This document shows, one piece after another, positions 15,643 through 17,063 of a stretch of 38,745 nt of DNA. The DNA comes from an uncultured Saprospirales bacterium (GTDB taxonomy: Bacteria; Bacteroidota; Bacteroidia; Chitinophagales; CAJXBJ01): contig CAJXBJ010000007.1 in NCBI GenBank assembly GCA_913050195.1, positions 1 through 38,745 of the forward strand, in the 5' to 3' direction. The notes under the pieces are model-generated. The model did not search any database. It had not been told where the DNA came from and worked only from the letters and a program-made list of their open reading frames with translations. Made by a program: the position numbers and the translations under genes. The first letter of the stretch is position 1; every line of letters begins with the position of its first letter.

Positions 15643-16726
15643 ATGAATAGCGATGACTTTCAAGACTTGGAGAAGAGAGTGGTGGCACTAAACCACTATC
15701 TTTGACATTGCTAATAAGAAGATCCAAATAGAGGAAGACGAACGTAAGACTGGTGATCCAGACTTTTGGTCAAATCCAGAGATTGCGGAACAGTTACTTA
15801 AAGAAATTAAGCGTAAAAAGGGCTGGGTAACAGAATACGATAGTGCGGCATCAGCTTTGGAAGATTTAGAAGTAATTTATGCTTTTTACCAGGAAGGTGA
15901 GGCTGCTACACAAGAAGTAGATAGTCAGTATAAGAAGACCATTGGTTTAGTAGAAAAGTTAGAGTTTAAAAGGGCTTTTGGAAATCCTGAAGATCGTTAT
16001 AATGCGGTGCTCACCATTAATTCGGGAGCTGGTGGAACGGAGAGTCAGGATTGGGTTCAAATGTTGCTTAGGATGTATACAATGTGGGGTGAAAAGCAGG
16101 CCTTTAAGATTAAAGAAATAGATCTTCAAAAAGGAGATGTTGCCGGAATAAAGTCCGTCACTATCGAACTGGAAGGAGATTATGCTTATGGATATCTCAA
16201 GGGGGAAAATGGTGTTCATAGGTTGGTGCGAATTTCTCCCTTTGATTCAAGTGCAAGAAGACATACCTCATTTGCTTCTGTGTTTGTATATCCACTAGTA
16301 GAAGATGATATTCTTATTGAAGTTAATCCATCTGATATTGAGTGGGATACATTTAGATCTGGAGGTGCCGGAGGTCAAAATGTAAATAAGGTTGAAACAG
16401 CTGTAAGGCTCCGACACAAGCCGTCAGGAATTATTGTTGAATGTCAACAGGAGCGTTCCCAATTATTAAATAAGGAAAAGGCGATGCAATTACTTCAGTC
16501 GCGTTTATATGAACTGGAAATACGGAAGCGAGAGGAAGAAAAAGCTAAAGTAGAGAGTGGGAAGATGAAAATAGAGTGGGGTTCACAGATTAGAAACTAT
16601 GTTATGCATCCTTATAAATTGGTTAAAGATTTGAGAACTGGCTATGAAAGTGGTAATGTGCAAAGCGTAATGGATGGAAATTTAGATGAATTCATAAAGG
16701 AATACTTAATAAGTACAAATGACTAA
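15643..16726 (+). CDS. prfB: Peptide chain release factor 2, expressed through a +1 programmed frameshift
   Basis: RF2 releases peptides at UGA and UAA. The ORF track shows only the long second part (from 15857), but the gene starts at ATG 15643. Twenty codons ([20 protein letters not shown]) end at an in-frame TGA (15703-15705). Dropping T15703 after CTT restores the frame: [22 protein letters not shown] continues into the ORF-track frame, giving about 360 residues, normal for RF2. The anticodon-like SPF motif ([15 protein letters not shown]) and the catalytic GGQ ([18 protein letters not shown]) are present. The family mechanism is autoregulation: low RF2 leaves the UGA unread, and the ribosome slips +1. 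The gene overlaps arsC by 8 bases. Confidence 0.96.
15697..15706 (+). promoter_or_regulatory. RF2 recoding (+1 frameshift) site
   Basis: TAT CTT TGA C is identical to the classical prfB site around the slip codon: CTT in the P site, stop TGA, then C. The SD-like AGGGGG that stimulates the shift in E. coli is absent. The six bases before TAT are AACCAC. Confidence 0.95.
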
Positions 16727-17063
16727 AATAAGAATATATCATAACCCAAGATGTCGTAAAAGTAGAGAGGCTTTGGCCTTAATAGAAGGAAGGGGTGAAA
16801 TTGAAATTATAGACTATTTGAAAGAAGGATTTAATATTTCGGAATTAGAAACAGATATTAAAAAGGCCAATATTTCAATAGAGGCCTTTGTTAGAAAAGG
16901 AGAGGCGATATATAAATCAGACTACAAGGGAAAGGTATTAGATGAAAAGGGGTGGATAAAAGCTTTTGTAAAGCATCCAAAATTATTTGAGAGACCTTTA
17001 GTAGTTGTTAAAAATAGGTCGGTGCTTGGCAGGCCCCCAGAGAATGTGTTAAACCTTTTTTAG
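16719..17063 (+). CDS. ArsC-family thioredoxin-fold reductase
   Basis: A 114-residue protein of the ArsC/YffB/Spx family. The active-site loop is [13 protein letters not shown] with Cys12. The three arginines that bind arsenate in E. coli ArsC (60, 94, 107) have counterparts at Arg59 (FVRKGE), Arg92 (ERPLVV) and Arg105 (LGRPPE). This supports glutathione- or glutaredoxin-linked arsenate reductase chemistry more than an Spx role. No ars operon is nearby, and the gene is translationally linked to prfB by an 8-base overlap, so its real substrate is uncertain. Its stop codon interlocks with the stop of the convergent SirB1-like gene. Confidence 0.85.

Follow-up and report, generated by a model that had tools for sequence, protein, structure and literature searches.

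The prfB gene, which encodes RF2, lies on the forward strand of contig CAJXBJ010000007.1, within the 38,745-nucleotide stretch of DNA analysed here (the window), and is divided between two reading frames. The zero frame (15643..15705, +) starts at ATG 15643 and runs for 20 codons, with an N-terminal pattern RV..L..YL common to relatives, before it is closed by a TGA at 15703-15705. The body of RF2 follows in the +1 frame (15704..16726, +). It spans 340 codons, ends at TAA 16724-16726, and its 340-aa translation scores 491 bits against TIGR00020 (cut-off 370 bits). The two frames meet at the slip site CTT TGA C (15700..15706, +), in which the P-site codon CUU (15700-15702) is followed by the stop UGA and by a C at 15706. 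Joined by a +1 shift, they yield a 360-aa RF2 harboring SPF at residue 198 and GGQ at residue 243. The match of this fused protein to TIGR00020 reaches 501.9 bits, spans the junction and extends back to residue 7, as expected from the preliminary description, according to which a +1 shift past TGA 15703 restores a full RF2 with both motifs.

The prfB SD-like element is the textbook case of a reading frame steered by pairing between mRNA and rRNA. The locus resembles the E. coli type (AGGGGG UAU CUU UGA C) in its short zero frame, its UAU CUU UGA C sequence, its RF2 body in the +1 frame, and a UGA that is read by the gene's own product. An early in-frame UGA with the RF2 body in +1, and the slip sequence CUUU with its following C, are thus both found here. 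In contrast to the E. coli type, no SD-like element stands 3 nt before the slip codon; such an element is usual for the class rather than required, since SD-less sites recur. The hexamer AACCAC (15691..15696, +) occupies the usual place of AGGAGG or AGGGGG, directly before the E-site codon TAT (15697..15699, +). Its predicted duplex with the anti-SD CACCUCCUUU has an energy of +2.0 kcal/mol, that is, no pairing, whereas the median of the 163 frameshift sites is -12.5, and the missing stimulator had been recognized correctly.

The MAG amounts to 2.03 Mb in 184 contigs; it is fragmented and 75.6% complete. A search of the whole of it returned no second prfB, and hence none of the single-frame copies that would have made this one suspect. 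No prfA match above cut-off was found in this 75.6% complete MAG either, an absence probably due to incompleteness. TGA is the stop of 50 of 325 genes (15%), and RF2 is therefore needed. Downstream, a 114-aa ORF (16719-17063) begins with an ATG at 16719, within the last prfB codons (prfB stop at 16724-16726), and given this overlap its translation may be coupled to that of RF2.

The comparison drew on 190 prfB loci from two sources, named genomes and the organism's own order. A search of the organism's own genus and family returned this genome only, and among RF2 proteins with a named record the closest shows 65-66% identity. A CTTTGA-like site is found at the homologous codon in 163 of the 190 loci, the remaining 27 being single-frame. 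Among the frameshifted genes, 158/163 carry exactly CTTTGAC, and the E-site codon is TAT, TAC, TTT, or TTC at every site compared. The site is therefore the classical CUU-UGA-C one, as originally proposed, and its conservation at the homologous codon makes an inserted T in the assembly (at 15703) very unlikely.

Loss of the SD-like element is not confined to this genome. Of 104 frameshift sites from the order, 81 have a strong SD, 9 an intermediate one, and 14 a weak one. Within the class, 395 genomes were searched by pattern, and 12 prfB sites without an SD were recovered after a homology check. SD-less sites occur in about 20 Bacteroidia lineages (21 in the class tests below), a list drawn up from genus labels and a single gene tree. 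On an RF2 tree (204 rows, FastTree, one gene), SD loss requires 16 changes, of which at least 12 are forced by well supported branches. Lineage L189 has reached the same AACCAC independently. All 42 SD-less sites retain CTTTGAC exactly. The SD-like element has been lost repeatedly in Bacteroidia, while the slip site has been retained. SD-less sites also favour NAC or NAA before an E-site codon TAY: most have NAC, NAA, or NAG, and NAT never occurs. In the NAY lineages the base is C in 8/8 (product 3e-4, a post hoc figure).

On the ribosome side, the anti-SD of F. johnsoniae is released when Tyr54 of bS21 is mutated (PMC9976891). This residue is kept in the bS21 of the MAG, which aligns with the F. 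johnsoniae protein (7jil chain z) over residues 1-55. SD motifs are found upstream of 8 of 325 genes, compared with 6.0 expected in shuffles, which amounts to no SD signal. No rpsU-type extended SD is present upstream of bS21 in the MAG, bS18 is partial, and neither bS6 nor a 16S gene was found, both gaps probably reflecting the incompleteness of a MAG that is 75.6% complete. At the level of sequence, these features are consistent with anti-SD sequestration in this genome. The suggestion that sequestration, as reported for flavobacterial 30S subunits, would render a stimulator useless is therefore compatible with the genome, although the organism is established as a member of Bacteroidia and not as a flavobacterium.

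A candidate hairpin lies immediately upstream of the slip site. Its 5' arm AGTGGT (15678..15683, +) and its 3' arm ACCACT (15692..15697, +), an inverted repeat already pointed out in the preliminary description, can pair without mismatch over 6 bp and close a loop of 8 nt, in a stem predicted at -8.5 kcal/mol (z -1.3). Five of these pairs, GUGGU/ACCAC, stop exactly at the E-site codon. Among shuffled sequences, 4-5% contain a stem of at least 6 bp; the figure is 8.6% for 40-mers taken from the window, and 19 of 182 prfB sites have such a stem. Under synonymous recoding with the genome codon usage, the stem ranks 0.26 by pairing and 0.19 by energy. Taken alone, it is chance-level and proves nothing. 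Nor is the exact stem conserved: among 182 prfB sites, no other has all six Watson-Crick pairs in this register. A stimulator 3' of the slip site was also considered and rejected, since nothing stands out in the predicted folds of 15706-15785 (z -0.28) or 15715-15800 (z -0.84).

The preliminary description had objected that the stem would sit in the ribosome channel. This objection is weaker than it looks, because the stem uses the same bases as the SD helix, and engineered hairpins adjacent to the E site work on 70S ribosomes, where they take over from the internal SD in stimulating the +1 shift on CUUUGA (Huang et al. 2018, PMC6321510). In that system, a stable 12-bp stem gave about 60% of the internal SD effect, and a weakened variant did little (PMC6321510). 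The engineered mimic and the present locus share a hairpin by the E site, upstream of CUUUGA, and the +1 direction. The former, however, is an artificial, GC-rich stem assayed in vitro without RF2, whereas the natural candidate here comprises 5-6 bp and is much weaker.

Following the engineered hairpin result, the SD-less sites were examined as a class for hairpins adjacent to the E site, in a test devised after the data had been seen. The 42 nt immediately upstream of the E-site codon were folded and compared with a null of synonymous recodings that follow each gene's own codon usage. Excess pairing of SD-less sites peaks at -7 (+0.33) and -6 (+0.38), with partners around -25..-18, and in the same fold test SD-bearing sites display no excess at -7/-6. 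Over positions -10..-4, the 21 SD-less lineages, taken as one row each, have a mean rank of 0.25 (p about 1e-5; 3e-5 without the locus itself), compared with 0.58 for SD sites and 0.46 for in-frame genes. Stems of at least 5 bp ending at -6..-4 are found in 7/21 SD-less lineages versus 2.0 expected (p 1.5e-4). The signal depends on the window folded: with 33 nt (z -2.1) it is no better than that of in-frame genes (z -2.0), and with 45 and 57 nt it lies at z -3.2 to -5.5. SD-less sites are thus enriched in hairpins abutting the E-site codon, in a window-dependent manner. If the C at -6 and its neighbours pair in a hairpin, the preference for C before the E site is partly explained.

Other hairpins have been observed around these sites. 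In L133, L216, L217, L268, and L269, with the hexamers AAACAA, AAGCAA, or AAAGAA, a strong hairpin ends near -12/-13, at the ribosome trailing edge instead of beside the E site. The weak-SD site of L015 harbors a 9-bp hairpin (ACGCCUUGA/UUGAGGCGU) that abuts the E-site codon upstream of CTTTGAC and makes it the most promising natural site for a reporter test. The SD-bearing prfB sites, of which there are 118 among the loci, show a different upstream hairpin, with arms at about -29..-24 and -16..-11, that ends just 5' of the SD, and E. coli prfB (L276) folds in the same manner.

In the Algibacter/Psychroserpens/Winogradskyella group (Flavobacteriaceae), a 6-bp stem (-23..-18 / -11..-6) is 96% paired. 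In two of its pairs both partners have changed (C-G to U-A; U-A to C-G and A-U). The covariation score, in a count that also includes two rows from g92, an unrelated genus bearing the same kind of stem, is reached by 0/500 shuffles, and slid versions of the stem are at most 47% paired. Every stem position that changes is the third of its codon (CGC/CGT, CTT/CTA/CTC, CTA/CTT/CTG, AGG/AGA); these changes are synonymous, and the protein therefore does not explain them. Independent covariation events are few, roughly two to four, and compensatory changes are seen only in the Algibacter/Winogradskyella clade and g92. Together with the class enrichment, they make it likely that a cis hairpin substitutes for the SD in several lineages. 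The idea of the stem as a substitute stimulator thus finds no backing in the single sequence of this locus, but it does at the level of the SD-less class and of one clade.

Taken as a whole, the locus is very probably an autoregulatory +1 RF2 frameshift that works without SD-anti-SD pairing. We infer that the +1 shift occurs in this organism. When RF2 is scarce, a ribosome with tRNA-Leu on CUU would pause at the weak stop UGA-C, and the tRNA would slip from CUU to UUU, giving full RF2; when RF2 is plentiful, the 20-residue peptide would be released instead. In Bacteroidia, the anti-SD is tucked away on the 30S platform. Hidden in this manner, it would make the SD-like element dispensable, and hence repeatedly lost. 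The SD helix appears to be replaced, in several lineages without an SD, by a hairpin of the mRNA with its 3' arm ending 3-5 nt upstream of CUU, a role that GUGGU/ACCAC would take at this locus. Its 3' arm, lying on the nucleotides of the SD helix, would help to release the E-site tRNA or block backward movement, as has been proposed for the engineered hairpin (PMC6321510). A role of the hairpin in frameshifting here is plausible, judging from the class-level tests, though it falls somewhat short of an even chance.

A competing explanation, to which we would give slightly less than even chances, is that no stimulator is required: CUU-U would suffice together with a weak codon in the E site (UAU) and a slow stop (UGA-C), and the hairpins would be due to chance. 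An SD-less Winogradskyella prfB site is reportedly still shifted in F. johnsoniae, as efficiently as the site native to that species, in the work of Naeem et al. 2024 (RNA 30:136), which two later papers cite. To our knowledge, no substitute hairpin is described there. The chance-level stem of the present locus speaks for the same explanation, as does the third or so of SD-less lineages without an abutting hairpin (L133, L194, L216, L217, L262, L269). It does not account, however, for the enrichment of the class against the synonymous null or for the compensatory synonymous changes in one clade. Since the covarying clade includes the Winogradskyella site type, the activity reported for the latter may itself depend on a hairpin.

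The site could also be decaying, with a low demand for RF2 and autoregulation on the way out, so that SD loss would be a stage on the way to losing the frameshift or to very low RF2. Frameshifting is indeed absent from many Bacteroidia (PMC8710568), the share of genes ending in TGA in the MAG is just 15%, and lineage L268 adjoins an in-frame relative (L105) on the RF2 tree. The slip codon and stop would nevertheless be expected to go first, and they are intact at 42/42 SD-less sites; moreover, no shift means no RF2, yet 50/325 genes rely on TGA. Decay is therefore unlikely.

An altered anti-SD in this organism, pairing with another upstream hexamer, is very improbable. Among the three relatives with a readable 16S, the SD-weak G015 (L271) does carry UCUCC in place of CCUCC, and Weeksellaceae with UCUCA are without the prfB frameshift altogether (PMC8710568). 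The two SD-less relatives G030 and G704, however, keep the CCUCC core intact, so that anti-SD loss is not the cause of SD loss in them, and AACCAC would require GUGGUU in the 16S tail. With 2/3 of the readable SD-less relatives retaining CCUCC, an anti-SD change was rejected as a general cause of SD loss; lineage L274, which appeared anomalous, was left out. In G015, whose prfB site reads AAGCGG TTT CTTTGAC, the UCUCC anti-SD and the AAGCGG site may represent a coupled change. Finally, a pseudogene or an assembly error, with an extra T at 15700-15703 in an ordinary in-frame prfB, would suit a MAG fragmented into 184 contigs but can be dismissed as extremely improbable, given the CTTTGAC at the homologous codon of 158/163 relatives, the 340 open codons that follow, and the lack of another prfB in the MAG.

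Shifting without SD-anti-SD pairing thus stands as the best explanation. SD-less prfB sites as such are not new, the reported Winogradskyella case being a precedent that shares with the present locus its place in Bacteroidia, a retained slip site, and the lack of an SD; the two differ in lineage and in hexamer, which is AGACAR in Winogradskyella. The F. johnsoniae prfB (AGGAGGUAUCUUUGAC, PMC8710568) belongs to the same class and has a sequestered anti-SD and the same slip site but, unlike the locus described here, keeps a perfect SD; a work cited in PMC12421855 is given there as the source for its shifting at low efficiency with this SD. The SD-like element of prfB has been termed hyper-conserved (PMC12421855). 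In the literature searched, no earlier report was found of its absence recurring in about 20 lineages, or of a natural hairpin in its place.

That the RF2 mRNA-rRNA duplex of Bacteroidia has been repeatedly replaced by an mRNA hairpin at the same nucleotides, with this locus as one case, is a tentative proposal, to which we attach rather less than an even chance. Until now, only engineered constructs had demonstrated that a hairpin can replace an SD and, if the proposal is true, the SD-replacing hairpin would be the natural counterpart of the engineered SD mimic. Bacteroidia ribosomes hide their anti-SD, and for their frameshifting McNutt et al. have proposed unknown cis elements (PMC8710568). 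Some 20 SD-less lineages, together with a candidate hairpin in cis and compensatory variants found in nature, make the mechanism directly testable with short reporters in F. johnsoniae.
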